DNA from: Natronorubrum thiooxidans
Lineage (GTDB): Archaea > Halobacteriota > Halobacteria > Halobacteriales > Natrialbaceae
Reading direction: 5' to 3'
Assembly (NCBI RefSeq): GCF_900156475.1
Contig: NZ_FTNR01000002.1
Coordinates: 62,001-126,000 of the forward strand
DNA length: 64,000 nt
Shown: positions 12,173 to 50,110 of the stretch, piece by piece
How the letters are laid out: each line of letters opens with the position of its first letter
How positions within the stretch are numbered: the stretch's first letter is position 1
The notes under the pieces: model-generated
What the model was told of the DNA's origin: nothing
The model's database searches: none
The model's input: only the letters and a program-made list of their open reading frames with translations
Translations under genes and position numbers: made by a program

Positions 12173-13276
12173 TCAGAGTGGATCCGGGATCGGAACGCCG
12201 CCGAAGACGAGGACGGCGAGCACCCAGTAGGCGACGTAGAGGCCGAGAAGCACGTACCCATGTCGCCGACGAATTCGTCCGGTAGAGATGTAGTACGCGG
12301 CAACGGCGGTCAAGATAATAACTGCGGGGAGATGGAAGACGAGGACGTCTCGCGGAACGACCACATCGGCGACGAACGCGATGATACCGACGTTCGCCGT
12401 CACGGAAAAGATCACGCTGCCGATGACGTGACCGATTCCGATCTCCGGAACGCCGCGGCGAACCGGTTCGATCGTCAACAGCAGATTCTCGAAAGTCAAC
12501 ACGAGCGTCAGGATCGTCGCGCCGAAGACTGTTTCTTCGATCCCCCACGTTTCGGCGATCACCTCCGAACTCGCCTCGAGGAGTGCCGCTCCCGCGACGA
12601 GACCGAGCAGCGCGACGAGCGACAGCCCGATCCAGAAGAGCCCTTCGTACGACCGGTCCGCGACGAATCGGTCTTCCGGAATGTCTTCGAGGACCGCTCG
12701 GTTGTCGACGTCCGTAACGGTGAGTTCGTCGATTGGGACGCCGCCGTCAGCCTCGATCCGCTCTGCAATCTCCGAATCCCTGAAGACGGGGACGTCGCGC
12801 TGAATTTCACGATAGATGATATACCCGAACAGAACGACGAAGATCGCAGTGAGCGCAAGCCCGTGAACGAACGTGAGCGTGCCGACGAAAATGAACGGAA
12901 TCAAGACCAGCGGCGACAGTACGAGCAGTAGCAGATAGTCCGGCGGGATCTCGACTGGAAACGGCTTGTAGATGGCGGCGACGGCCAGCGTGATCCCCGT
13001 GATTGCGAGTGCGGTTCCCAGCGCCGTCCCAAGAGCGACCTGCTCGAGGCCGCCAGCACCGAAGACGAGTGCGACGGCGGTGTCGTCGAATTCGAAGCCG
13101 GTGAAGACGATCGCCAGGCCGAAAATCGAGACACCCAGCCCAAAGGCAGCACGTGTCAGGTAGCTAATTAGCTTTTCGACGCTGTAGGTCAGGACGACCG
13201 CCCCGACGAGGAGCATGAGATACGCCATCCAGACGCCTTGTGACTCGATGAACCCCTCGATGAGCTCTTCGACCAT
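12173..13276 (-). CDS. Sodium/calcium exchanger (CaCA) family membrane protein, paralogue
   Basis: This 367-residue protein shares length, membrane layout and acidic central loop with the protein encoded at 10984, 76 bases downstream. Its second repeat is FENLLLTIEPVRRG then GIGHVIGSVIFSVTANVG. The first (LEQVALGTALGTALAITGI) departs from the canonical Asn-rich alpha-1 motif, so ion selectivity may differ from classical exchangers. A TATA-like box lies 24-29 bases upstream of the ATG, implying a leaderless transcript, and sits inside an inverted repeat. Confidence 0.8.
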   Translation of the reverse strand: MVEELIEGFIESQGVWMAYLMLLVGAVVLTYSVEKLISYLTRAAFGLGVSIFGLAIVFTGFEFDDTAVALVFGAGGLEQVALGTALGTALAITGITLAVAAIYKPFPVEIPPDYLLLLVLSPLVLIPFIFVGTLTFVHGLALTAIFVVLFGYIIYREIQRDVPVFRDSEIAERIEADGGVPIDELTVTDVDNRAVLEDIPEDRFVADRSYEGLFWIGLSLVALLGLVAGAALLEASSEVIAETWGIEETVFGATILTLVLTFENLLLTIEPVRRGVPEIGIGHVIGSVIFSVTANVGIIAFVADVVVPRDVLVFHLPAVIILTAVAAYYISTGRIRRRHGYVLLGLYVAYWVLAVLVFGGVPIPDPL

Positions 13277-13292
13277 AGCACCGTATATGAGT

Positions 13293-13348
13293 CATGATAC
13301 CATATATCTATCATGTCGTGTATACGATTCCGTTGAACTCGTATACAC
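13293..13348 (-). promoter_or_regulatory. Promoter with two inverted repeats upstream of the exchanger genes
   Basis: Two perfect inverted repeats lie side by side. CATGATA (13293-13299) pairs with TATCATG (13309-13315), with a TATA-like CCATATATC spacer. GTGTATACGA (13318-13327) pairs with TCGTATACAC (13339-13348) across 11 bases. The first encloses the predicted TATA box of the exchanger gene starting at 13276, the classical place for a repressor; the second lies just upstream of it. The neighbouring ArsR-type regulator is the obvious candidate binder. Confidence 0.55.
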
Positions 13349-13422
13349 GGATCGAGAATCGGGGTGCCGACCGACCGCTCGCCGATTCCGTGTGACGGTG
13401 TCGCGGGTACGACCGGGCCCGG

Positions 13423-13764
13423 TCATCGTTGGGGCCGGTCTTCGCCATCGATCGATTCAGCCTGCAGAAGGAACGTCCGTTCCGGCGGCGGCGCGATCTG
13501 CAGTTCGATGGTGGCAGCCAGTTCGTAGTACTTGCGGTTCCCGCGCATGTACCACTCGACCAAGCCAGCCTCCTCGAGCGTCGAGAGATGGTGGACGGCA
13601 GTCTTCCCGTCCATTCCGGTCGCCTCTGCGAGTTCCGAGACGTACTTCGGTTCTCGGGAGAGTTCACGTAGAATCTCGAGTCGCGTCCCGTTCCCCAACG
13701 TCTCGATGAGTGACATGCGCTCGTCTTCGGTCCCGGCAGCAAGAAGGATTTCGCCGGGTCGCAC
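13423..13764 (-). CDS. ArsR-family winged-helix transcriptional regulator
   Basis: The core LIETLGNGTRLEILREL, EPKYVSELAEATGMD and AVHHLSTLEEAGLVEW is a standard ArsR/HTH_20 winged helix. The C-terminal strand-rich tail (about 25 residues) is common in haloarchaeal members. The start is uncertain: I chose a GTG at 13764 (113 residues) because ATG starts at 13830 or 13845 would overlap the divergent gene at 13829 and leave no promoter. A TTTATGAG-type element at about 13799-13806 could serve both directions. No metal-binding Cys cluster is visible. The location suggests control of the adjacent exchanger genes. Confidence 0.75.
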   Translation of the reverse strand: MRPGEILLAAGTEDERMSLIETLGNGTRLEILRELSREPKYVSELAEATGMDGKTAVHHLSTLEEAGLVEWYMRGNRKYYELAATIELQIAPPPERTFLLQAESIDGEDRPQR

Positions 13765-34141: not shown

Positions 34142-35248
34142 TCACTTGAACGACCAGTGAGAATCGTCAGAGAACCCGAACTCGTCGTCGGCTGTCGTCG
34201 GCACCTCATCTGCCGACGTCTGGACGCTCTGATAAAGGTGCTCGAGGTGCTCGAGCGTGCGCTGGATGTCATACTGGTCGACGGCCGTCCGGGTGTCGCG
34301 GTCCGTCTCGAGACACGTTTCGATCGCGGCGGTCATCGCCTCGAGGTCGCCGTATGCGAAGCGCTCCCCGTTGTCCGCGTCGATTGTCTGGTCGAACGGG
34401 GCCGCGTCGGCTGCGGCGACAGGCGTCCTGCAGGCGTTGGCCTCGAGCGTGGAGAGGCCGAGCGTGTCGGCCGTCGAGGCGGTGACGAAGGTATCGATCG
34501 ACGAGTAAAAGATCGGCAACTCCTCGCGGGGGAGGAACGGTCGCAACTCGACGTTGTCGGGGGCGTCGCGCTCGAGGGAGTTTCGGTAGGGCCCTTCGCC
34601 GACGATGACGAAGTCGTAGTCGGACAACTCTTCGGCGGCGCGCAGGATCTCGCTGACGTTTTTCTCCATACTGAGCCGCCCGCTGTAGCCGATGACCGTT
34701 CGATCCGGATACCAGTCCGCTGCGGTCGGCTGGAAGAACTCCATGTCGATCCCCACCGGGAGCTGGACGTGTTCGACGTCGCGTTCGATCCGTCCGGTCG
34801 AGGCGGTCACAATGTCGAAGCTTTCGAGGAACGCGTTTTCCAGCGGAACGTACAGTTTCGAAAGGGCGTTTGCGACCGACTCGAGTTTGACGCTCTGGTG
34901 GAAGTACTCCTCGATCGGCGTGTGGTGGGTGTAGATCGTCGGCAGGTCGTGTTTCTTGGCGTAGTAACGCCCGAGGATGCCGACCGGTGCAGGACCGTGA
35001 CAGTGGACGACGTCGAGGTCCGGGAGCGTCGACGGGCGTCTGAAAAGCGGGATCCGATAGCCGGCATAGAACGGGTTCGGCAGCGATTGCACCGGAATCT
35101 CGCGGTCGCCGGGCTCGTAGTCACCGTCGGGGTAGACGACGTAGACCTCGTGGCCTTTCCGCTCTAATTCCTCGCGCCAGAGTTTGATCGTATACGTTAC
35201 ACCATCGATCTCGGGGAAGTAACTGTCTGTGAAGAATCCAATTTTCAT
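34142..35248 (-). CDS. GT4 glycosyltransferase, lipid glycosyltransferase-like
   Basis: The 368-residue protein begins MKIGFFTDSYFPEIDGVTYT, the N-terminus of diacylglycerol-glycosyltransferase-like GT4 enzymes. The donor-site half has GYSGRLSMEKNVSEILRAAEE, VGEGPYRNSLE and TASTADTLGLSTLEANACRT. In the last, the first Glu of the usual EX7E pair is Asp, as in DTLG-type lipid glycosyltransferases. It probably adds a sugar to a membrane lipid at the cytoplasmic face. It starts one base from the stop of the gene at 35249 and is last in a four-gene minus-strand group reaching 38868. Confidence 0.87.
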   Translation of the reverse strand: MKIGFFTDSYFPEIDGVTYTIKLWREELERKGHEVYVVYPDGDYEPGDREIPVQSLPNPFYAGYRIPLFRRPSTLPDLDVVHCHGPAPVGILGRYYAKKHDLPTIYTHHTPIEEYFHQSVKLESVANALSKLYVPLENAFLESFDIVTASTGRIERDVEHVQLPVGIDMEFFQPTAADWYPDRTVIGYSGRLSMEKNVSEILRAAEELSDYDFVIVGEGPYRNSLERDAPDNVELRPFLPREELPIFYSSIDTFVTASTADTLGLSTLEANACRTPVAAADAAPFDQTIDADNGERFAYGDLEAMTAAIETCLETDRDTRTAVDQYDIQRTLEHLEHLYQSVQTSADEVPTTADDEFGFSDDSHWSFK

Positions 35249-36232
35249 TCAGATCACCTCCTCGTACAGCGATCGATACTGGTCTGTGACCGCCTCGAGC
35301 GAGAAGTCCTCGCTTCGAGCGGCCGCGTTCGATCCGAGTCGACGCCTGAGTTCCGGGTCTGTGAGCCGCTCGAGGGCCGCTTCGAACCCGTCCACACCCG
35401 ACCCCGACACTTTCAGACAGTCCTCGCCATCCTCGAGCCACGAGAACGTCTCGATGTCGCGGACGAGGAGGGGTTTCCCGGCGGTCATCGCCTCGAGCAG
35501 CGCGATGCCCTCGTTTTCCTCGTGGGTGGGGAAACAGAAGATGTCGCCGGCCGCGTACGCACCGCGGATGTCGTCGACGTAGCCGGTGAACGTGCAGTTT
35601 TCGGGTGCGTCTTCGATCAGCGCCGTCGTCTCCCGCCCTTTCAGGGAGAGATCCAGCGGGCCGAACCAGGCGAAATCGACGTCGGGCAGCCGACGGGCCA
35701 GTTCGACGAACGTTTCGAGTCCCTTGCGCTTGATGACGTGGCCGACGAGGAAGACGGTCGGCGACTCGAGGTCGTATCGTTCGCGGTACTCGTCCTCGAG
35801 CGCGTCGAACCCGACGAGTTTCTCGCGATCGACGCCGTTCGAGATCACTGTCGTCGGCGTGTCCGTGTAGGTCTCGATCAGTCCCTGATTATACGCGGAG
35901 GGACAGACAAGCGCGTCGGCCAGTCCGTAGGCTCGCTCGAGATACGGCTTGAGCGGCTTCGCGAGGGTGTTCGTGAACCGAAAGCTGTCGCCGAAGTCTT
36001 CGGCGGTCACGTGCGTGTTCGCGACGACCGGGATGTCGCGTGCGCGTGCTCGTTTTGCGTACCAGACCGACCGCGGTCCCATGAGATTACAGTGAAAGAT
36101 GTCGGCGTCGAGGTCCGGTTCGGTCGTGTACTGCAGGTCGAGTCGGTTCAGCATTTTCCGCTGGTGGACGACGGATTCACGAATGCCGCCGGTGACGTGG
36201 TCCTCGAATTCGAAGTAGTGGCTGATCTCCAT
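35249..36232 (-). CDS. GT4 glycosyltransferase
   Basis: The 327-residue protein has a shortened acceptor half and a clear GT4 donor half: VFLVGHVIKRKGLETFVELARRLPD, FTGYVDDIRGAYAAGDIFCFP and the EX7E motif in HEENEGIALLEAMTAGKPL. It is directly followed by the second GT4 gene without a gap, so the two likely act in sequence on the same glycan or lipid. Donor and acceptor are unknown. Confidence 0.86.
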   Translation of the reverse strand: MEISHYFEFEDHVTGGIRESVVHQRKMLNRLDLQYTTEPDLDADIFHCNLMGPRSVWYAKRARARDIPVVANTHVTAEDFGDSFRFTNTLAKPLKPYLERAYGLADALVCPSAYNQGLIETYTDTPTTVISNGVDREKLVGFDALEDEYRERYDLESPTVFLVGHVIKRKGLETFVELARRLPDVDFAWFGPLDLSLKGRETTALIEDAPENCTFTGYVDDIRGAYAAGDIFCFPTHEENEGIALLEAMTAGKPLLVRDIETFSWLEDGEDCLKVSGSGVDGFEAALERLTDPELRRRLGSNAAARSEDFSLEAVTDQYRSLYEEVI

Positions 36233-36312
36233 CCGAGTGGGTTAGTCGCGAGTTCCGTTGGTGACACGATACGGCCGGACCGGTAGCGAACGCCGGGTGT
36301 GGCAGCGACCCC

Positions 36313-37170
36313 TTACTCGACTTCGAGCCACGGGACCTCCATGAGCGGCGAAATGTGTGTCTCGATGTGGTGTTCCCAGACGCCCTCCTCGCCGAAGGCT
36401 TCCCCGTGGTCGGCCGTCACAATGACTCGGCCGTCCAGTTTCTCGACCAGTTCGGCGACGGACTCGAGGGCGATTCGCAGGTTCTCCTCGTAGAGTGCCA
36501 TCGCCGCCTCGCGGGTGCCGTTCGTGACGACGTCGGTGGGATCGAGTTCGAGCCAGAGGCCTGCCTTCTGGGCGAGTTCGCTGCCCTCGAGTTTGTCTTC
36601 GACTTTCGGGCGGAGCGTATCGCCGAGCGAAGCGAGTGCACCGCCGTTGTCTCCGCTTTCCTCGGCTTCTTCCTGTTTCCGAATCCCTTTCTGGATCTGT
36701 TTGAGCTTCTGGCCCTTGCCGCGGGCGAGGTAGGGGGCATGAGGTTGCATGTAGTGGAGGACCGTCCGATCGGCCTCCTTGACGGCGGCTTGATGGTCGT
36801 AAAACGCCTCCGTCAGTCCCTCCGGTGGAACCGTACCGAGGTCGTCGTCCCAGCCGCTTTTCCAGACGTCGAAGACGTTGCTGATGTGGTCGGAGGCCGT
36901 CCATTCGTAGTCGCAACTGGCCCCCCACTTGAGTTCGTTCAGCGGAATTCCGAGGTCGTTGATGAAGGGGTTCCCCGAAAAGTACGCGATGTCGTGATCG
37001 CCGGTAAACGTCCGGTAGGCCCACTCCGGCGTCGACGAGCCGGTGCTCCAGCGCTTTTCCAGCGTCCCGTCGAGGTAGTCGTCGTAGACCTCGCTGAATA
37101 CGTCGTATCGGCACGCATCCAGCACCAGACAGTAGTCCCACTCCGACTCGAGGAAATGCTGGTCCTGCAT
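36313..37170 (-). CDS. Alkaline-phosphatase-superfamily protein (sulfatase-like), short form
   Basis: The 285-residue protein starts MQDQHFLESEWDYCLVLDACRYDVF, where VLDACRYD matches the first metal-binding strand of the superfamily, followed by SSTPEW with a possible Thr nucleophile and a late VIVTADHGEAFGEEGVWEHH carrying the other metal ligands. No Cys or Ser formylglycine motif is present, so it is not a classical sulfatase. It has no signal or membrane segment. The neighbourhood of glycosyltransferase genes suggests a phosphotransfer or hydrolysis step on a glycan or lipid. Confidence 0.72.
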   Translation of the reverse strand: MQDQHFLESEWDYCLVLDACRYDVFSEVYDDYLDGTLEKRWSTGSSTPEWAYRTFTGDHDIAYFSGNPFINDLGIPLNELKWGASCDYEWTASDHISNVFDVWKSGWDDDLGTVPPEGLTEAFYDHQAAVKEADRTVLHYMQPHAPYLARGKGQKLKQIQKGIRKQEEAEESGDNGGALASLGDTLRPKVEDKLEGSELAQKAGLWLELDPTDVVTNGTREAAMALYEENLRIALESVAELVEKLDGRVIVTADHGEAFGEEGVWEHHIETHISPLMEVPWLEVE

Positions 37171-37293
37171 TAATTGGCGATACCTTTCGAGTCTCCCTAC
37201 GTATGCTTATTGGTTTTTGGACTTTCTCTGTGGCTGTCCGACGCGCGTCGAGCCGACGCGGCCGCGTTGGCGGTCACCCGTCGACCCGAGACC

Positions 37294-38868
37294 TTACTCG
37301 AGGTAGCCGAGTTCCCGAAGTCGGTCGCGGGTCTCCTCGTCGGCTTCGGCCAGCGCGTCGGCCTCGTCCGCGTCGGTCTCGGACGGATCGTCCCACGCAC
37401 CGCCGGCGTGCTCCTCGAAGCGGGCGAGTGCCCGTTCGGTTGCGGCGACGACGTCGTCGTCGGTCGGGTCGACCGGTGACCGCTCTGCGGGGTCGTCGTC
37501 GAGTCGGTATCCCTCGTCGGAAATTCGGTCTGCGCGGACGTACTTGGCGTCCGTGCTGCGGGCTGCGCGCAGCCGCGAGTACGCGCGATGGTCATCCGAG
37601 AGGTCGATGCCGGCCTCGCTCGCTTTCTGTTCTAGGTGGTGGAGTTCGATGACCGGCTGGGCGTACTCGACGAACGCGTAGTCATCGGCTGTGTCCTCGC
37701 CCTCGAGGACGGCCCGTTGTCCAGCGTCGGGATCTGTGGCCCCCCCGAAAGTACGGTACTCGTCGGCGAGCAGCGACCGCGTCGAATCGCGAGAAACGGC
37801 ACTATCACCGAACTGTCCGACTGTGTCAGGATCGACGTCCAGCGCGTCGAGTGTCGTGTGGTAGAGATCGAGCAACTCGACGAGGTCGTCGCGACGGTCG
37901 GCCTCGAGATCGGGATGTTTCACCAGCAGCGGAACGTTGATGAGCTGGTCGTAGAGGGCGAACTCGTGGCCGTAGAGGTCGTGTTCGCCGTGGAGTTCGC
38001 CGTGATCGGCCGCAACGACGACGGTCGTCTCTTCCCATTGCCCCGTTTCGCGCAGCCAGTCGAACAGGCGGCCGAGCTCGGCGTCCATGTGGGCGATCTC
38101 GGCATCGTAGAGCCCGCGGATGGCATCCCACTCCTCGTCGTCGATGTCTCGTGCGCCGGAGTTGTACTCCTTCGAATTCTGGCAGACGTCGTCCGGATCG
38201 ACGCCGGGGGCGAACGCCTCGCGGTACTCCTCGGGCGGGTAGTACGGCAGGTGCGCGTCCATCAGGTTGATGAACGCGAACCAACCCTCGTCGCTGTCGC
38301 TGTCGTCGATGAAGGACTTCGTGCGGTCGATGACCGAGGGCGTCTTCGAGTCGGCACCCTCACCGCTGGCGAGTTTGGCGTGGGCCATCGCGCCGAGGTG
38401 AACGAGTTTCGACGCGAGTTCGCGGAGGTAGTCGTTGTCGTTGACTGCCTGCCACGCGCTCGCAAGCGGGCCCGAGAAGACGTCGCCGGGCAGCACCTCG
38501 AAAAACGAGTCCTGAGCATCAAAGCCCTCGGTAAGGCCAGTGTAAGGCGTGATCCACGCGTTCGAGGAGTAACACGCCGTATCGTAGCCGGCCGCCGACA
38601 AGACCGACGCGAGGGTCACGTCATCGTCGAGGTACGGACTCCCCTGATCGGCCCCGTGCTGACTCGGGTAGCGCCCGGTAAACAGCGAGGCGTGGACCGG
38701 CAGCGTCCACGGTGCGGGCGCGACCGCCGACTCGAAGACGGTCGCCTCCCGCGCAAACCGCGAGAGTTCGGGCGTCGTCTCCCGTTCGTATCCGTACGGA
38801 CCGAGGTGATCCTTCCGAACCGTATCCAGAACGACGAAGAGGACGTTCGACTGCCGAGTTTCGTCCAT
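37294..38868 (-). CDS. Sulfatase-family protein with Thr at the nucleophile position
   Basis: From the Met at 38868 (MDETRQSNVLFVVLDTVRKDHLG) the protein has 524 residues. Asp15 is a metal ligand. PWTLPVHASLFTGRYP (53-68) aligns with the sulfatase signature CxPxRASLLTGR, but Thr55 replaces the Cys or Ser needed for formylglycine. A later AADHGELHGEHDLYGH carries metal ligands. Thr is the nucleophile in phosphoethanolamine and glycerophosphate transferases of this superfamily, so phosphotransfer or phosphodiester hydrolysis is likelier than sulfate ester cleavage. It is first of the four-gene group ending at 34142, and no export signal is visible. Confidence 0.83.
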   Translation of the reverse strand: MDETRQSNVLFVVLDTVRKDHLGPYGYERETTPELSRFAREATVFESAVAPAPWTLPVHASLFTGRYPSQHGADQGSPYLDDDVTLASVLSAAGYDTACYSSNAWITPYTGLTEGFDAQDSFFEVLPGDVFSGPLASAWQAVNDNDYLRELASKLVHLGAMAHAKLASGEGADSKTPSVIDRTKSFIDDSDSDEGWFAFINLMDAHLPYYPPEEYREAFAPGVDPDDVCQNSKEYNSGARDIDDEEWDAIRGLYDAEIAHMDAELGRLFDWLRETGQWEETTVVVAADHGELHGEHDLYGHEFALYDQLINVPLLVKHPDLEADRRDDLVELLDLYHTTLDALDVDPDTVGQFGDSAVSRDSTRSLLADEYRTFGGATDPDAGQRAVLEGEDTADDYAFVEYAQPVIELHHLEQKASEAGIDLSDDHRAYSRLRAARSTDAKYVRADRISDEGYRLDDDPAERSPVDPTDDDVVAATERALARFEEHAGGAWDDPSETDADEADALAEADEETRDRLRELGYLE

Positions 38869-39050
38869 TACTGGTGCCAACTAGGTCCATCCAGATAAAA
38901 TGAGTTAACTGTTCCGTGTTACCATTCTACATTCCTCGTCCACCACGGGCCGAGGGAGTTGCCTCGAGTAACGGGCGAAACAGGCCATCGATACCCACTC
39001 TCGCTGGCAGCAACCAGACGTTTCAAGTTCGCTAACGATTCATATTCGCC

Positions 39051-40085
39051 ATGGATACTCGAAACCGGCGCGCCTTTCTCCTCGGCGCCTTCGGGACGAT
39101 TGCGGTCTTTGCCGTCCTCCTTTTCGTCGTCGGCGCGAGACGCGTCGTCGACTCGCTGCTGTCGGCAGACCCGTCGCTGGTCGCCGTGACGTTCGCGCTC
39201 GCGATCTGTTGGCTCGCCGCCTGGAGTTTGATGCTCCGGACCGTCCTCGTCACGCTCGGCGTCACCATCCCGGTTGCGAAGGCGTTTTTCGTTTACTCCG
39301 GAGCCGTGTTCGCGAACAACGTCACGCCGTTCGGGCAGGCCGGTGGCGAACCGGTCGCGGCGCTGCTCATCTCGAAAGTTTCCGATTCGCGCTACGAGAC
39401 CGGGCTCGTCGGCATCGCGAGCGTTGACGTTCTCAACGTTGTCCCATCCATCTCGCTTATTTTCGTCGGTGTCGCGTACTACGCGACGACGGCCGCCATC
39501 GGTGAACGCCTCGAGACGGCCGTCAGTTCGGCTGTCGTGCTGATCTCCGCAGTTGTCCTCGTTATCGGCCTCATCTGGCGGTATCACGGGACGATTATCG
39601 ACCGCCTCCCCGCCATCGTTGCCCCGCGACTCGAGCGACTCGGACTTGAGCGACTCGGACTCGAGCGATTCGACTCACAAACGCTGGAAGCAGATCTTGC
39701 GGACCGGTTGCAGCGGTTCTTCGAGAACATCGAACGCGTCGCGGTCGATCGCTGGCGGCTCGTCGCCGTGGTCGGCCTCTCACTGGCCGGTTGGCTCTTC
39801 CAGACGGCTGCACTCATGGCAGCGTTCGCCGCCCTCGGCTACAGCGTGCCGCCGTACGTCCTGTTGTTCGTGATTCCACTGGCCAACCTCGCCGGGGCTG
39901 CGCCGCTTCCGGGCGGCCTCGGCGGGATCGAAGCCGCGTTCGTGACGCTGCTCGTGCCGACGACCGGCGTCGAGGCGTCGGCTGTTACTGCGGCTGTCCT
40001 CATTTTCCGCGGCGCGATCTACTGGATGCCGGTGCTGATCGGCGGCGTGTCGGTGTCGGCCTTCGGCGTCCGCACGCTCCGGTGA
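39051..40085 (+). CDS. Lysylphosphatidylglycerol-synthase-TM-domain (UPF0104) membrane protein
   Basis: The 344-residue protein has about eight membrane segments with the family pattern AFFVYSGAVFANNVTPFGQAGGEPVAALLISK and PLANLAGAAPLPGGLGGIEAAFVTLL. These proteins are flippase-like and in archaea are often found with glycosylation genes. A short tandem repeat encodes LERLGLERLGLERF in a cytoplasmic loop (about residues 195-208). It is likely part of lipid or lipid-linked-glycan transport in this envelope region. Confidence 0.85.
   Translation: MDTRNRRAFLLGAFGTIAVFAVLLFVVGARRVVDSLLSADPSLVAVTFALAICWLAAWSLMLRTVLVTLGVTIPVAKAFFVYSGAVFANNVTPFGQAGGEPVAALLISKVSDSRYETGLVGIASVDVLNVVPSISLIFVGVAYYATTAAIGERLETAVSSAVVLISAVVLVIGLIWRYHGTIIDRLPAIVAPRLERLGLERLGLERFDSQTLEADLADRLQRFFENIERVAVDRWRLVAVVGLSLAGWLFQTAALMAAFAALGYSVPPYVLLFVIPLANLAGAAPLPGGLGGIEAAFVTLLVPTTGVEASAVTAAVLIFRGAIYWMPVLIGGVSVSAFGVRTLR
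39628..39672 (+). repeat. Three 15-base tandem repeats inside the UPF0104 gene
   Basis: GACTCGAGCGACTCG at 39628 is followed by two near-identical copies (one or two changes each) to 39672, in frame, giving three LERLG-like units in a loop. This is probably a slippage product and may vary in length between strains. Confidence 0.7.
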
Positions 40086-41856: not shown

Positions 41857-43302
41857 TCAGTCGTCTCGCCGATAGACCGGCAGCCGGAACCGAATGCCGG
41901 CATCGCGGAGTTGCCACCTGAGCTCCGCGCCAGCCCATATCAACCCAGTCAGGAGGCCGATAGCGATCGCCGCGAACTCGGCCGATCCCATCCAGATCGG
42001 CGTCGCGTACAGCAGGCCGTTATACACGCGATGCGGGAGGAGTTCCTCGAGGAGGTCGCCGAAGAACTCGAGCGGGTTGACGCCGAAGCCGCTGTCGCTG
42101 GCTCCGCCGCCACCGCCGCCACTATCGGCTTCCGTGCGAGACTCGAGGCCGAGTTCGGCCGCGCTCTGGCCGCCCTCGCTTTCCTCGCCGGTCTCTAAGC
42201 GTTCCGCCTCGTAGGGGAGCGTCGAGCCGACTTCCCACACGATCTCGCCGGATTGGTCGACCTCCATCACGCGGTTGCCGTGGGAGTCGGCGATGAGCGT
42301 GTTCCCGTTGGGCAGGCGGTCGGCGTCTCTCGGCCACTGAATCTGGTCGTCTTCCCACTCCCAACTGCGGGTCCACTCGCCGTCCGCACCGCCCTCGCGC
42401 TGGAACTCTTGGACGCGTCCGTTCTCCGAGTCGGCGACGACGACGGCCGGGCCGCCCTGCGATTCGGGGATGTAGTCCGGGTTGTGCTGTTCGTACTGGA
42501 CGTCGTAGTCGTTCTCGCTGCCGAGCGTCCAGTCGTCGACCAGCCCGTCTTCTTGATCGATGAAGACGACCTGATCCTGGTTTCGCAGACTGACCATGAT
42601 CCGGCCGTCGTTCGGATCGCCCTCGGCTTCGATGTACGAGACGTCGTTGATGTGGGCCCAGTCTTCTGGATACGGGCCGGCCTCCTCGACGGGGAAGTCG
42701 CTCTGGGCATCCCAGAGCCACTCGACGACCTCCGTTTCGGTGTTCACGATGAACACTTGATCCGCGACGATGTCGGCGATCGCCACGCGCTCGTCGTCGA
42801 TCCGCGTCGAGTCGTGCCACTCGCCCGCGGTCTCTTTGTAATCGTACCGTTCGTAGAGCACCTCGACCTCACCGGTCTCGAGGTCGACGCGCTCGAGGAC
42901 GTTTCTCGCACACGGTGGATCGCTACACGTCGGTCCTTCGGAGTGAACGGTGTCCGTGGCCACGTACTCGATGGTCATCGGATCGTCTTCGACAGGATCG
43001 ACGTCGAAGTACTTCGTGCGCGTGTTGTTGTAGTAGATCACCTCGCCATCGGGCGCGTAGGCGGTGATCGTCCCGGCACGGCCCGATTCAGTGATGACCG
43101 TGTGATTTTCGGTCTCCGGGGCGGTCGGCACGTCCGATTCGGACGCCGTCGAGAGACCGTCGTTCGACGACGCACTGACGACGGCCGCAGCCGATACGAG
43201 CAGTATCGCGACGAATACGATTCGGAGTCGGTTCCGCGAGATTGTCGAGCGAAGCCGCGCAAGCGACGGGCGAACGCGGTCGGTCACGGGGCGTTCACCC
43301 AC
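41857..43302 (-). CDS. Arylsulfotransferase (ASST)-like beta-propeller membrane protein
   Basis: The 481-residue protein has an N-terminal membrane segment (about 27-47), a propeller-like domain with repeated (D)xxGxxVW motifs (PEDWAHINDVSYIEAEGD, WPRDADRLPNGNTLIADSHGNRVMEVD), a Gly/Ser linker and a C-terminal membrane helix (about 440-465). This matches the haloarchaeal arylsulfotransferase-family proteins, which have the ASST fold; the catalytic His of true sulfotransferases cannot be assigned with certainty. The propeller probably faces outside. Its neighbours are envelope genes. Confidence 0.8.
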   Translation of the reverse strand: MGERPVTDRVRPSLARLRSTISRNRLRIVFVAILLVSAAAVVSASSNDGLSTASESDVPTAPETENHTVITESGRAGTITAYAPDGEVIYYNNTRTKYFDVDPVEDDPMTIEYVATDTVHSEGPTCSDPPCARNVLERVDLETGEVEVLYERYDYKETAGEWHDSTRIDDERVAIADIVADQVFIVNTETEVVEWLWDAQSDFPVEEAGPYPEDWAHINDVSYIEAEGDPNDGRIMVSLRNQDQVVFIDQEDGLVDDWTLGSENDYDVQYEQHNPDYIPESQGGPAVVVADSENGRVQEFQREGGADGEWTRSWEWEDDQIQWPRDADRLPNGNTLIADSHGNRVMEVDQSGEIVWEVGSTLPYEAERLETGEESEGGQSAAELGLESRTEADSGGGGGGASDSGFGVNPLEFFGDLLEELLPHRVYNGLLYATPIWMGSAEFAAIAIGLLTGLIWAGAELRWQLRDAGIRFRLPVYRRDD

Positions 43303-44994: not shown

Positions 44995-46086
44995 TTAGAT
45001 GCGCTGTGAGACCTTCTTCGCGGCCGCGAGGGCACCCTGATCCCACGCAACGCGGTGGTCGAGACCGGTCTCGTCGGCCTCCTGGTCGGCGTCGTAGTGC
45101 TCCAGATACCACTTGTACGTCTCCACGAGCGCCTCCTCGTTCGAGTACTCGGGCTCCCAGTCGAGGCGTTTCAGTTTCTCGACGGAGACGTAGGAGTCCT
45201 CGTGGGCCGTCTCGTAAACCCACGGATATAGCGGGGAGAGGTTCAGCCGCTCGAGGACGCGAAGGACCGCGACCGTGAGGAACGCGGGCGTTCCGATGGT
45301 GCGCTTGTCCGTCCCCGCATAGTCGAGGGGGGCCTGAAAGTCCTCTTTCATCGTGCCGAACTCGTCGGTGCCGACGTTGAACGTGTCGTTCACGTCGGCT
45401 TCGTCGCCGGTGAGCATCAGTTCGATGGCGGTGACGAGGTCGTGGACGTGGAGCAACTGGTACTTGTTGTTCCCCCAGCCGACGAGCGGGACGTTCGCGC
45501 CGTCTTCGATCCAGTCGAACAGCACCTGGAAGACGCCGAGTCGCTGCGGACCGATGAACGTTTTCGGGCGGAGGATGGGGACGCACATGCCCATGCGCCG
45601 GAAGTCCTGGCAGATCTTCTCGGCCTCGATCTTGGCCTCGCCGTAGGGGCCGACTCCATCCAGCGACGACTCCTCGGTGATGGGGTGGTCGTCGTGTGTG
45701 CCGTACACCGCAGTCGAGGAGATGTAACAGACCCGCTCGACGCCGCGTTCGTTCGCCGCCCAGAGCACGTTTCGCGTCCCGTCGATAGTCGTCTCCCGGA
45801 TGCGGTCGGCGTCCCACAGCGGAAGCGCGGCGGCCGCGTGGACGACGGCGGTCGCCCCGCTTTCCTCGAGCGCGTCGGCGACGGACTCCTCGCGCTGGAC
45901 GTCGCCGCCGATGAAGTCGATACCGTCCGTATCGTCTTCCGGTTCGAAGGGTTTGAGATCGAATGCGGTGACGTCCCACCCCTGATCGCGGAAGTACTGG
46001 CACGTGTGCAGGCCGAGGAATCCGGTGCCTCCCGTGACGAGAACCGACCCGGTCGAGTCGTCGCTGGTGCGCTCACTATCGCTCAT
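44995..46086 (-). CDS. NAD-dependent epimerase/dehydratase (extended SDR)
   Basis: From the Met at 46086 (MSDSERTSDDSTGSVLVTGG) it has 363 residues. The NAD motif is TGGTGFLG (18-25), the catalytic pair is Tyr148 and Lys152 (GPYGEAK) with STAVYG before it, so the active site is intact. The protein resembles UDP-glucose 4-epimerase and 3-beta-hydroxysteroid dehydrogenase-like sugar enzymes. It is divergent from the UbiA operon and probably supplies a nucleotide or lipid-linked sugar. Confidence 0.86.
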   Translation of the reverse strand: MSDSERTSDDSTGSVLVTGGTGFLGLHTCQYFRDQGWDVTAFDLKPFEPEDDTDGIDFIGGDVQREESVADALEESGATAVVHAAAALPLWDADRIRETTIDGTRNVLWAANERGVERVCYISSTAVYGTHDDHPITEESSLDGVGPYGEAKIEAEKICQDFRRMGMCVPILRPKTFIGPQRLGVFQVLFDWIEDGANVPLVGWGNNKYQLLHVHDLVTAIELMLTGDEADVNDTFNVGTDEFGTMKEDFQAPLDYAGTDKRTIGTPAFLTVAVLRVLERLNLSPLYPWVYETAHEDSYVSVEKLKRLDWEPEYSNEEALVETYKWYLEHYDADQEADETGLDHRVAWDQGALAAAKKVSQRI

Positions 46087-46475
46087 CGTGATGTCGGCCG
46101 TGACGTCAGTCCGATGCCTCAATAGTATGTCGACGTTTCACTGGGTGTATACCGTCCTTATTCTCACCGCCGAACGCAACGATCGACTGTCGCACTGTGT
46201 GATCGCGCGCCGTCGTCCTCACAGACACGGAACGGGTGGTCCCGTCAGCAAAGTCGTCGTTTACCCTGTAACAGTCGGCTCGGTGATCAATCGGCTCACC
46301 GACACGTACTACTCGAGTGGCCTCGACCTGTCAGCGCAGCCGAGCGCACATCTATACCAAAAGTTACCAGTCCCTGTATAAATGAATACTGCCGCGTAAC
46401 GTTCTGATAACCCACTGTACCGAATAACGCAAGCCGGGTCTTTTTGCTATCTTCTCTGGAGGATGACAGATATAG
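46087..46475. promoter_or_regulatory. Divergent promoter region (389 bases)
   Basis: This gap lies between the epimerase gene and the UbiA operon. It has a TATA-like GTATAAATG (about 46377-46385) and a GGAGG ribosome-binding site at 46458-46462, somewhat far from the UbiA ATG at 46476. A 7-base inverted repeat (TCGGTGA and TCACCGA, 46280-46302) lies near the middle. No gene is convincing within it. Confidence 0.4.
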
Positions 46476-47390
46476 ATGGCCAGCGTCCACAGCACCCGGA
46501 ATCGGGTCGTGGCGACCGCCTCCGGGCTGGTAAAGGAGATGCGTCCCTGGCAGTGGTACAAACAGAGCATTCTCCTTTTGGGGCTCGTCTTCTCCGGCAG
46601 CCTGTTCGATCCGGCTGCCGTCACGAACGTCGCCCTCGGCATCGTCGCCTTCTGTGCGATCGCGGGGACGACGTACATCGGCAACGATATCCTCGACGTC
46701 GAGGAGGACCGCAACCACCCGCGAAAGAAACACCGCCCCATCGCCAGCGGACAGGTTTCGATCACCGTCGCGGTGGTGTTTGCAGCCGTGTTGTTCGTCG
46801 GCGGACTCTCCCTCTCGTGGTATCTCGGCCCACTGCTCCTCCTCGTCGTGCTCACGTACCTCGCCCAGAACGCGCTCTACTCCGTCTTCCTCAAAGAGTT
46901 CGTCATCGTCGATGTGATGGTCATCGCGATCGGGTTCGTCCTGCGAGCGATCGCGGGCGTCGTCGTCATCGACGTCTATCTGAGCCCCTGGCTCGTCGTC
47001 TGTACGTTCCTCGGGGCGTTGATGCTCGCCCTCGGCAAGCGTCGCCACGAGATGGCCGTCAGCGACGATCCGGCCGCCTCGAGGGCCACCCTCGCCGAGT
47101 ACACCGAGGAGATCCTCGATCAGCTCCTTATCGCCGTCCTCGCGGCGCTGATCGTCTCCTACTCGCTCTATACGTTCTTCCGCGGCGGGCTGTGGATGAT
47201 GGCGACGCTCCCGTTCGCCTTCTTCGCGACCTTCCGATACCACTATCTCACGCACACCGAATCGCTGGGCGGCGATCCGAAGTTCCTCTTCGGCGACCGG
47301 CCGTTTTTCGTCAACTTCGTCGTCTGGGGCCTCGTCGTCGTCGCCGTCCTGTATCAGGTTCCGCCCCGACTACTCGAGGTGATTGTGTGA
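46476..47390 (+). CDS. UbiA-family prenyltransferase resembling DPPR synthase
   Basis: The 304-residue membrane protein has about nine helices. The first Asp motif is NDILDVEEDRNHPRKKHRPIASG (70-92) and a later one is VDVMVIAIGFVLRAIAGVV. The HPxKxxRPIASG continuation is the pattern of decaprenyl-phosphate 5-phosphoribosyltransferases (the mycobacterial Rv3806c family), which attach phosphoribose from PRPP to a polyprenyl phosphate. It is first in a tight operon with a PHP hydrolase and a flippase-like protein. A plain quinone or tetraether prenyltransferase cannot be excluded. Confidence 0.84.
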   Translation: MASVHSTRNRVVATASGLVKEMRPWQWYKQSILLLGLVFSGSLFDPAAVTNVALGIVAFCAIAGTTYIGNDILDVEEDRNHPRKKHRPIASGQVSITVAVVFAAVLFVGGLSLSWYLGPLLLLVVLTYLAQNALYSVFLKEFVIVDVMVIAIGFVLRAIAGVVVIDVYLSPWLVVCTFLGALMLALGKRRHEMAVSDDPAASRATLAEYTEEILDQLLIAVLAALIVSYSLYTFFRGGLWMMATLPFAFFATFRYHYLTHTESLGGDPKFLFGDRPFFVNFVVWGLVVVAVLYQVPPRLLEVIV

Positions 47391-47412
47391 CGACCCGCTT
47401 CCCGAGCCATCC

Positions 47413-48093
47413 ATGACACGTCGATACGACCTGCAGGTCCACACGGACGCCTCGCCCTGCTCGAGTACCCCGCCCGAGCGCGTCGTTGCGGCGGCGGTCG
47501 ACGCCGGCCTCGACGGCATCGCCGTCACCGACCACGACACGCTCGCCAACGTCGACGCCGTTCGTGCCGCTGCGCCGGCCGCCCTCGAGGTGATCGCCGC
47601 GGTCGAGGTGACGACGACCGAGGGCCACCTCCTGGCGCTCGACGTGACGGAGCCACCGCCGCAGGACGACCCGCTGACGGTGGTCGACCACGTCCACGAG
47701 CAGGGCGGCGTCGCCGTCCTCTCGCATCCCTTCGACACGTTGCGGCAGGTCTACGAGACGGACCTCGAGGCGCTCGCGACGGCCGTCGACGGCGTCGAGG
47801 CGATCAACTCCCGCTGTGTCCGCCGCCGGTTCAACGAGCGCGCGGCGACGTTTGCGGCCACCCACGGGCTGGCGGCAACCGGTGGCAGCGACGCCCACTT
47901 CCCGGTGGAGGTCGGCCGCGCGTACACCTGCGTCGAGGGGGACGGCTCGCTCGCCGACGCCATCCGCGACGGACGCGTCCGGCCGGGCGGTCGCGGCCGA
48001 TATCTCTCGGGCCACGTCGCGACGAAACTCCACCAGTTTCGCACCGCCTCCGCTCGCGCCGTCTCGAACCTGTCGCTGGGGCGATCACCGTGA
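47413..48093 (+). CDS. PHP-domain metal-dependent phosphoesterase
   Basis: From the Met at 47413 it has 226 residues. The four PHP motifs are visible: LQVHTDAS (7-14), AVTDHDT (37-43), SHPFD (104-108) and GGSDAHF (157-163), binding two or three metal ions. PHP enzymes hydrolyse phosphomonoesters or phosphodiesters. Lying 22 bases after the UbiA gene and two bases before the flippase-like gene, it could remove the 5-phosphate from polyprenyl-phosphoribose, a step done by another phosphatase family in mycobacteria. This role is inference. Confidence 0.86.
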   Translation: MTRRYDLQVHTDASPCSSTPPERVVAAAVDAGLDGIAVTDHDTLANVDAVRAAAPAALEVIAAVEVTTTEGHLLALDVTEPPPQDDPLTVVDHVHEQGGVAVLSHPFDTLRQVYETDLEALATAVDGVEAINSRCVRRRFNERAATFAATHGLAATGGSDAHFPVEVGRAYTCVEGDGSLADAIRDGRVRPGGRGRYLSGHVATKLHQFRTASARAVSNLSLGRSP

Positions 48094-48095
48094 CG

Positions 48096-49055
48096 ATGAA
48101 CGTCAAAGCCGTCGTCGACCGGAGTCGGGCGATCGTCCGCGACCACGGCATCTGGCTGACGGCGCTGCTGACGGTCGTCGTCTTCCTCGGCCTCGCCGCC
48201 TACACGGGCCTCGAGGATGTGACGAGCGCCCTCGTCGCGCTGGAGTGGACGACGTTCGGTGCCGTTGTCGGCCTGACGACCGTCGGCTACGGCTTTCGTT
48301 TCGCCAAGTGGCACTACTATCTCCGGCGGCTCGAGATCGACGTGCCGCTCGGTGCGAGCGCTATCACCTTCTTCAGCGGCCTGATGATGGTCGTCACGCC
48401 GGGCAAAGCCGGTGAGGTCTGGAAAGCGTGGTTCCTCCGCGACAAGCGCGGCGTGCCCGCGAGCACGATCACGTCCGTCGTCGGTGCCGAACGGATCACT
48501 GACCTCATTGCGCTCTGTGCGATGGCCGCGCTCGGACTGGTACTCTACAGTCGCTCGTCGCTGCCTGTCGTCGTCGTCCTCGCCGCTATCGTCGCCGTCG
48601 TCGGCCTGCTGCGGTGGCGAGCAGCCTCGCTCGCGGTGCTCGACCGACTCGAGTCGGTTCCGGTCGTCGGCGACTACGCAACCGAACTCGAGCAGTTCTA
48701 CGAGAGCACGTACCGCCTGTTTCAGGTGCGTCCGCTGACCGTCTCGACTGTGTTCAGTCTCGCAGCGTGGGGGTTAGAGGGTGTCGCGCTCTGGATCGTA
48801 CTCGAGGGGTTCGGCGTCGAAGCCAGCGTCGTGATCGGACTGTTCGTCTTCGGCCTCGGCTCGGTAATCGGCGCGATCTCGATGCTGCCCGGCGGACTCG
48901 CGGCGGCGGAGGCGTCGATGGTCGGCGTGTTGCTCACGTTTGGCTACCCCGAAGCCGTCGCGGCCGCGGCCACGATCGTGATCCGCGTCGGGACGCTGTG
49001 GTACGCCGCAGCGCTCGGGATGGTGGTGTTTCTCACGTACAAGACGACGCGCTGA
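48096..49055 (+). CDS. Lysylphosphatidylglycerol-synthase-TM (UPF0104) flippase-like protein
   Basis: The 319-residue protein has about eight membrane helices with the family pattern FAKWHYYLRRLEIDVPLGASAITFFSGLMMVVTPGKAGEVWKAWFLR and SMLPGGLAAAEASMVGVLL. It is last in the UbiA-PHP operon (two-base gap), so the likely cargo is the lipid-linked sugar made by the first two enzymes. It is a distant paralogue of the protein encoded at 39051. Confidence 0.85.
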   Translation: MNVKAVVDRSRAIVRDHGIWLTALLTVVVFLGLAAYTGLEDVTSALVALEWTTFGAVVGLTTVGYGFRFAKWHYYLRRLEIDVPLGASAITFFSGLMMVVTPGKAGEVWKAWFLRDKRGVPASTITSVVGAERITDLIALCAMAALGLVLYSRSSLPVVVVLAAIVAVVGLLRWRAASLAVLDRLESVPVVGDYATELEQFYESTYRLFQVRPLTVSTVFSLAAWGLEGVALWIVLEGFGVEASVVIGLFVFGLGSVIGAISMLPGGLAAAEASMVGVLLTFGYPEAVAAAATIVIRVGTLWYAAALGMVVFLTYKTTR

Positions 49056-49183: not shown

Positions 49184-50110
49184 ATGCAGAACACTCGAGT
49201 GCTCGTAACCGGCGGTGCGGGATTCATCGGCTCGAACCTCGCAAACACGCTCGCTGCGGAGAACGAGGTTATCGCCGTCGACAACGGCTATCTCGGAACG
49301 GCCGCGAATCTCGACGATGACGTGACGTACGTGGAGGCAGACGTCCTCGAGGACGACCTGCCGACCGACGTCGACGTCGTCTATCACCTCGCCGCGCTCT
49401 CGAGTCGCCAGATGCTCGAGGAGAACCCGCGTCAGGGTGCTCGTGTCAACGTCGAGGGCTTTGTCAACGTCGTCGAACAGGCGATCGAAGACGGCTGTCG
49501 GACGACCGTCTACGCGTCGACGTCGTCGATCTACGGTAGTCAGACGACGCCAACAGCCGAAGACGCAGCGGTCGAGGCGGCGACGGGCTACGACGCCTCG
49601 ATGCTCACCAGAGAGCGCTACGCCGAGTACTACAACAACGTGGCTTCCGAGATGTCCCTTGCCGGAATGCGATTCTTCTCGGTCTATCAGGGATACGGCG
49701 GGTCCGAGAAGCACAAAGGCGAGTACGCGAACACAGTCTCACAGTTCGCTGACAAGATAGCGAACGGCGAGTCGCCCGTGCTGTGGGGCGACGGCACGCA
49801 AACGCGGGATTTCACGCACGTCGACGACATCGTTCGCGGCCTCGAGTTGGCCGCAGACCACGACCTCGAGGGCGTCTACAATCTCGGTACGGGCGAGCCG
49901 TACTCGTTCAACGAGACCGTGTCGCTGCTCAACGACGTGTTGGGAACGTCGGTCGAACCAACGTACGAACCGATCCCGCTCGAGAATTACGTCCACGATA
50001 CGTATGCGGACAGTTCGAAGTTCCACAGCGAAACGGGGTGGGAGCCCCAGGTCGACTTCGAGGAGGGTGTCAGGCGCGTCTGTCAGCCGTATCTCCCGGT
50101 CACGGAGTAA
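49184..50110 (+). CDS. Epimerase/dehydratase-like SDR lacking the catalytic lysine
   Basis: The 308-residue protein is an extended SDR with NAD motif GGAGFIG (10-16), STSSIYG and a dehydratase-like DFTHVDDIVRGLELA. At the catalytic YxxxK position it reads YDASM: Tyr136 is present but Lys140 is replaced by Met (codon ATG). Classical epimerase or dehydratase chemistry needs this Lys, so the protein may be an inactive partner, use another residue, or bind NAD without catalysis. It has its own TATA box and follows the UbiA-PHP-flippase operon. Confidence 0.82.
   Translation: MQNTRVLVTGGAGFIGSNLANTLAAENEVIAVDNGYLGTAANLDDDVTYVEADVLEDDLPTDVDVVYHLAALSSRQMLEENPRQGARVNVEGFVNVVEQAIEDGCRTTVYASTSSIYGSQTTPTAEDAAVEAATGYDASMLTRERYAEYYNNVASEMSLAGMRFFSVYQGYGGSEKHKGEYANTVSQFADKIANGESPVLWGDGTQTRDFTHVDDIVRGLELAADHDLEGVYNLGTGEPYSFNETVSLLNDVLGTSVEPTYEPIPLENYVHDTYADSSKFHSETGWEPQVDFEEGVRRVCQPYLPVTE

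Follow-up and report, generated by a model that had tools for sequence, protein, structure and literature searches.

Gene content, linkage, co-occurrence and active-site conservation point, with somewhat better than even probability, to an archaeal module for lipid-linked pentofuranose glycosylation, whose reactions, sugar and acceptor we infer. The module lies within the 64,000-nt stretch of DNA analyzed here (the window; all coordinates are positions within it). Three genes on the + strand form one tight run, the core operon (46476–49055). The UbiA-family gene (46476–47390, 304 aa) encodes a predicted polyprenyl-phosphate phosphoribosyltransferase of the DPPRS/PPPRS type. It is followed by the gene of a PHP metallohydrolase (47413–48093, +, 226 aa) and by that of an LPG_synthase_TM flippase-like membrane protein (48090–49055, +, 321 aa). 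The length of the PHP protein is counted from an ATG located 22 nt after the UbiA gene, while a TTG at 47383 gives 236 aa. The GTG start of the flippase gene overlaps the PHP stop by 4 nt, and an in-frame ATG is present at 48096. In agreement with the operon described in the original prediction, these reading frames carry the expected Pfam domains (UbiA, 1.5e-30; PHP, 6.8e-9, with PHP_C, 1e-14; LPG_synthase_TM, 6.2e-39).

To the left of the operon, the - strand holds the genes of an extended SDR (44995–46122, 375 aa; Epimerase, 6.7e-43), a candidate epimerase of lipid-linked pentose, and of a GT-C glycosyltransferase of the Mannosyl_trans4 (AglS-like) family PF15971 (43549–44901, 450 aa), a candidate pentosyltransferase. 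The SDR is counted from a TTG, with an in-frame ATG at 46086. Both divergent genes belong to the module, which is larger than its core of three genes. Next to them is an arylsulfotransferase-like gene (41857–43302, -; PF05935, 1.4e-10), a frequent neighbor of uncertain membership; relatives of it are found on either side of the module and fall into two identity classes (~30% and 76–95%). At 34142–40085, the window encodes two GT4 glycosyltransferases, two sulfatase-fold proteins, and a second LPG_synthase_TM protein (39051–40085, +). Much of this run is also found near the module in several relatives, as a larger surface-glycan region.

The UbiA-family protein and its active site

The NCBIfam model of decaprenyl-phosphate phosphoribosyltransferase, NF008977, matches the window UbiA with 241.5 bits, clearing its cut-off of 234 by only 7.5 bits. 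Two further decaprenyl models score above 63.9 bits and PRK08238 reaches 172.6 bits (cut-off 351); all other UbiA models, including those of quinone, haem, and archaeal lipid enzymes, give at most 63.9 bits. The best solved relatives are PDB 8j8j (E 6e-36) and 8j8k, both of Rv3806c from M. tuberculosis.

For a comparison of active sites, the eight UbiA proteins of the genome were aligned with Rv3806c and 15 positions were read off, comprising 13 substrate contacts named in the parts of PMC10994848 used here and Asp74 and Asp81 of the motif. At 12 of these 15 positions, which bind PRPP, Mg, and the lipid phosphate, the window UbiA is identical to Rv3806c, the changes being Gln135 to Asn, Tyr157 to Phe, and Lys208 to Ala. 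The Rv3806c-specific residues Lys28, Tyr70, Lys87, Lys143, and Lys191 are all retained. According to the same parts of that paper, Lys28 and Lys191 of Rv3806c contact the lipid phosphate, and Lys28 also the 5'-phosphate of PRPP. The other seven UbiA proteins, of which the distant paralogues align less certainly, all lack equivalents of these two lysines. Because of this absence, and with 12 of the 15 positions kept, only the window protein among the eight looks like a phosphoribosyltransferase. The motif quoted in the original prediction is present as NDILDVEEDRNHPRKKHRP (residues 70–88), and the type of enzyme that it proposed, a phosphoribosyltransferase and not another transferase, is upheld at the sequence level by NF008977, 8j8j, and the active-site residues.

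Linkage, co-occurrence and breadth

A search of 125 genomes of the family (Natrialbaceae) with NF008977 revealed a strong match in 24 of them (219–256 bits; the next best score is 31.6 bits). Twenty of these homologues pass the curated cut-off and four lie below it. We compared the surroundings of 23 UbiA loci, over at most 19 kb each; together with the window, these loci make up 24 family loci. UbiA and PHP occur together in 23 of the 24 loci, and the contig ends in the remaining one; the flippase joins them in 22. The SDR is linked to UbiA in 23 loci and the GT-C in 22, and an arylsulfotransferase-like relative is observed within the fetched stretch in 15. One carrier (G006) has neither the SDR nor a flippase beside UbiA, and in another (G016) the PF15971 protein is encoded far from UbiA. 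Epimerase-like genes had been predicted on both flanks of the operon. Both exist, but only the upstream SDR is a regular companion of UbiA; the downstream one (49184–50110, +) is found in 2 of the 24 loci, the window and one near relative, and was dropped as a module member.

In profile searches of the 125 genomes, the module PHP is present in all 24 UbiA-positive genomes (377–453 bits) and in none of the 101 UbiA-negative ones, where the best score is at most 153 bits; the dividing line was drawn after this gap in scores was seen. The SDR profile, at E 1e-60, detects 23 of the 24 UbiA-positive genomes and none of the other 101. PF15971 is found in 23 of the 24, as well as in five UbiA-negative genomes, one of them with a weak match. 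The high PHP and SDR scores of the carriers arise partly by construction, since the two profiles hold rows from the same family genomes, which leaves the absence elsewhere unaffected. Fisher tests give p values of 3e-26 for PHP, 3e-24 for SDR, and 3e-19 for PF15971, computed over related genomes, which are not independent. The joint conservation of UbiA, PHP, and flippase genes far exceeds what chance would produce.

More broadly, 392 genomes drawn from the phylum and 14 control genomes were searched at a UbiA threshold of E 1e-25. Matches were obtained in 19 of the 392 and, among the controls, in Corynebacterium only. Of the 17 matching loci that belong to genomes outside the family, 12 have a PHP gene no more than about 2 kb from UbiA (L161 and L169, among those lacking it, are short contigs), and 11 have the flippase gene no more than about 4 kb away. 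The three genes are consecutive in Halococcus morrhuae, Halalkalicoccus paucihalophilus, a Methanobacteriaceae MAG, and a Methanosarcina MAG; Natrinema zhouii and Natronococcus jeotgali are further culturable carriers. The joint conservation on which the prediction was staked is thus observed in haloarchaea, methanogens, and other archaeal loci.

Most methanogen-type loci lack the window SDR and PF15971 proteins, and DUF362 is frequent in them, so the later steps differ there. A DUF362 protein, 56–72% identical between loci, is encoded near UbiA in 9 of 13 non-haloarchaeal archaeal loci (L068 at 12581–13705, L071, L159, L160, L162, L164, L166, L167, and L168) and is a candidate pathway enzyme. 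Directly downstream of UbiA, 72 mostly bacterial loci encode HAD in ten cases, LPG_synthase_TM and DUF362 in four each, and an epimerase and PHP in two each. The archaeal PHP gene occupies the slot of HAD in other UbiA loci, and the arrangements suggest that phosphatase and flippase are exchangeable around a conserved UbiA core.

A quick tree was built from 104 UbiA rows, in which Rv3806c and L164 are on long branches and L072 is mostly missing. One group of 34 rows (SH-aLRT 91, below 95) holds nearly all archaeal rows, with L170 outside. The PHP label requires 4 changes on this tree, compared with 27.5 when shuffled, and none of 500 shuffles was as low. The UbiA of L076, a locus labelled Bacteroidales that has two PHP relatives, groups with the archaeal proteins, through either lateral transfer or misbinning of an archaeal contig.

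Phosphatase, flippase, epimerase and glycosyltransferase candidates

A structure model of the PHP protein, calculated from 12 rows (pLDDT 89), matches RNase AM, other PHP phosphoesterases, and the PHP domains of polymerases. Seven residues, H10, H41, E65, H105, E129, D160, and H162, are invariant in all 12 rows; the conserved motif residues are presumed to be the metal ligands typical of the PHP family. The first His of the HxH motif (47434–47442, codons 8–10) is Gln in the eight haloarchaeal rows, all of which read QxH, and HxH is intact in the methanogen and bacterial rows. Asp40 is Asn in 4 of the 12 rows. The haloarchaeal metal site is predicted to be non-canonical because of this Gln and, in some rows, the Asn. 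The PHP protein is a candidate 5'-phosphatase of lipid-linked phosphoribose, a substrate assignment made entirely from its gene position and its co-occurrence with UbiA.

The LPG_synthase_TM protein scores over the cut-off of the flippase-like model TIGR00374; a search by sequence found no solved relatives. LPG_synthase_TM genes also adjoin UbiA in Geosporobacter and Marinisporobacter contigs, which supports a flippase role in the pathway.

In the SDR, the motifs TGGTGFLG and YGEAK correspond to the TGXXGXXG and YXXXK of the SDR epimerases of xylofuranose systems. Its relatives (~48–51% identity) adjoin UbiA in contigs of Chloroflexota, WOR-3/TA06, and Margulisbacteria, and in L170, an archaeal genome of the phylum that did not contribute to the SDR profile, an SDR scoring 530 bits is encoded beside UbiA. 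The SDR gene of one carrier (L051:10216–11338) is split over frames, by decay or assembly error. A search of the genome with a single Pfam model found no DprE1-type ALO-domain protein, and arabinofuranose formation via DprE1/DprE2 is, on that one model, not favored. The pentose may be a ribose epimer. Our first guess, by analogy, is xylofuranose, because a single SDR makes this sugar in Citrobacter and the genome gave no ALO-domain match; the alternatives may be ribofuranose or other epimers.

The window GT-C is the sole PF15971 protein of its genome (99.6 bits; cut-off 33). We take PF15971 to be the AglS family, which fits the observation that Haloferax volcanii is the only match among the 14 control genomes. 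No solved structure in the PDB matched the GT-C profile, and a model obtained from three rows (pLDDT 38) was unusable. Other archaeal loci encode GT-C proteins of the PMT_2 type near UbiA (6 of 61 neighbors scanned). In a Natronococcus jeotgali contig the GT-C gene is split (L067:7371–8714), again by decay or assembly error.

Proposed pathway and relation to known systems

In the proposed pathway, UbiA would use PRPP to form polyprenyl-phosphate-phosphoribose, from which PHP would remove the 5'-phosphate to give polyprenyl-phosphate-ribofuranose. In most haloarchaeal carriers, the SDR would then invert one hydroxyl group of the ring through an NAD-dependent oxidation followed by a reduction. 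The LPG-TM protein would flip the lipid sugar outward, and the AglS-like GT-C would move the pentose onto a surface glycan, as AglS does with dolichyl-phosphate-mannose. The original prediction saw in the three core genes a complete route to an outward-facing polyprenyl-phosphate ribose. Its core is supported at the level of predicted functions, and it is not mistaken but incomplete. A dedicated SDR and the AglS-like GT-C are part of the module as well, so this GT-C is the probable user of the lipid sugar once it faces outward. A bolder form of the proposal, to which we lend somewhat less than even credence, is that lineages from haloarchaea to methanogens have their own version of the pathway, with a PHP phosphatase, an LPG-TM flippase, a haloarchaeal SDR likely producing xylofuranose, an AglS-type GT-C, and an undescribed pentose of the surface glycan.

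The fate of the lipid sugar and the role of PHP could each be read differently. Polyprenyl-phosphate-ribose, or a ribosylated terpenoid, might itself be a membrane-lipid end product and not a donor, with GT-C and SDR serving another pathway. Such an end product would suit the lack of a known acceptor glycan, the large distance between the GT-C and UbiA in G016, and the occurrence of PF15971 in 5 of 101 genomes without UbiA. However, the GT-C is within the locus in 22 of 24 cases, PMT_2 GT-C proteins are found near UbiA in other archaeal loci, and the operon includes a flippase-type gene, so that we regard this reading as unlikely. We judge it similarly improbable that the genes form a pentose donor route in which PHP acts in regulation, nucleic-acid turnover, or on another intermediate, and the 5'-phosphate is removed elsewhere. 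In favor of this reading, RNase AM and polymerase domains are among the nearest PHP structures, and haloarchaea have an altered metal motif; against it stand the exact co-occurrence of PHP with UbiA, their tight linkage in two archaeal groups, and the HAD gene at the equivalent place in other loci.

On the family scores and active-site residues, we rejected a quinone or lipid prenyltransferase reading of UbiA. In its wider form, where UbiA would be an ordinary quinone, haem, or lipid prenyltransferase in a fortuitous operon, we consider this reading very improbable: the UbiA fold and the margin of only 7.5 bits for NF008977 are compatible with it, but the Rv3806c residues Lys28, Tyr70, Lys87, Lys143, and Lys191 are kept, UbiA models other than the decaprenyl ones and PRK08238 stay at or below 63.9 bits, and the neighboring genes co-occur with UbiA.

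If the glycosylation module acts as proposed, lipid-linked pentofuranose glycosylation extends to a second domain of life, and one subgroup of PHP proteins and one of LPG-TM flippases acquire a function. Furanose pentoses would then be predicted in the surface glycans of Natrinema zhouii, Halococcus morrhuae, Natronococcus jeotgali, and Halalkalicoccus paucihalophilus. We know of no pentose in the glycan of any carrier strain. Our searches of the open-licence literature in PubMed Central, which covered pentoses in haloarchaeal and other archaeal glycans as well as phosphoribosyl and arabinofuranose lipids of archaea, found no archaeal pathway of this kind. A similar pathway is known from bacteria (PMC11127046), and in the parts of that paper used here the word 'archaea' occurs only in a reference title; an archaeal version has apparently not yet been reported.

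Among known archaeal systems, the AglD/AglS system offers a parallel for the last step. According to the parts of PMC4973528 used here, the S-layer N-glycan of Haloferax volcanii is mannosylated by AglS, a dolichyl-phosphate-mannose mannosyltransferase. The GT-C of the module, from the AglS Pfam family, would likewise act outside the cell with a lipid-monophosphate sugar as its donor. In contrast to that system, its lipid sugar would come from PRPP via UbiA and not from a dolichyl-phosphate-mannose synthase, and the AglS-like gene is located beside the module, whereas AglB was not found near it and is on another contig. The mycobacterial decaprenyl-phosphoryl-arabinose pathway comprises Rv3806c, Rv3807c, DprE1/DprE2, and Rv3789, as outlined in portions of PMC10994848 and PMC11127046. 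It shares with the module the first enzyme and its active site, as well as the proposed order of transfer, dephosphorylation, epimerization, and export. The phosphatase and flippase families are different, the single Pfam model found no DprE1-like ALO-domain protein in the genome, and one extended SDR lies beside the operon.

The closest known system is the three-component extracytoplasmic pentofuranose addition of Citrobacter youngae O1/O2 (Kelly et al. 2024, PMC11127046). As set out in the parts of this paper used here, a fused HAD domain removes the 5'-phosphate, an SDR with TGXXGXXG and YXXXK is required for xylofuranose instead of ribofuranose, and homologues of DprE1/DprE2 are found in systems that add arabinofuranose. 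On the archaeal side, the 304-aa UbiA protein consists of a UbiA domain only, and no HAD was found among the 17 window genes scanned. Set against that description, the phosphatase is a separate PHP protein and not a fused HAD domain, the flippase is LPG_synthase_TM and not MATE, the GT-C is assigned by Pfam to PF15971 (AglS-like), where the bacterial one is of family GT136, and the host is an archaeon and not a bacterium. With PHP in place of the HAD phosphatase and LPG_synthase_TM in place of the MATE flippase, the module is therefore not a strict member of the three-component systems. It would nevertheless work alike, through a UbiA-type polyprenyl phosphoribose synthase, a 5'-phosphatase, a flippase, a GT-C, and one SDR, whose likeness to the xylofuranose epimerase lies in the two shared motifs.
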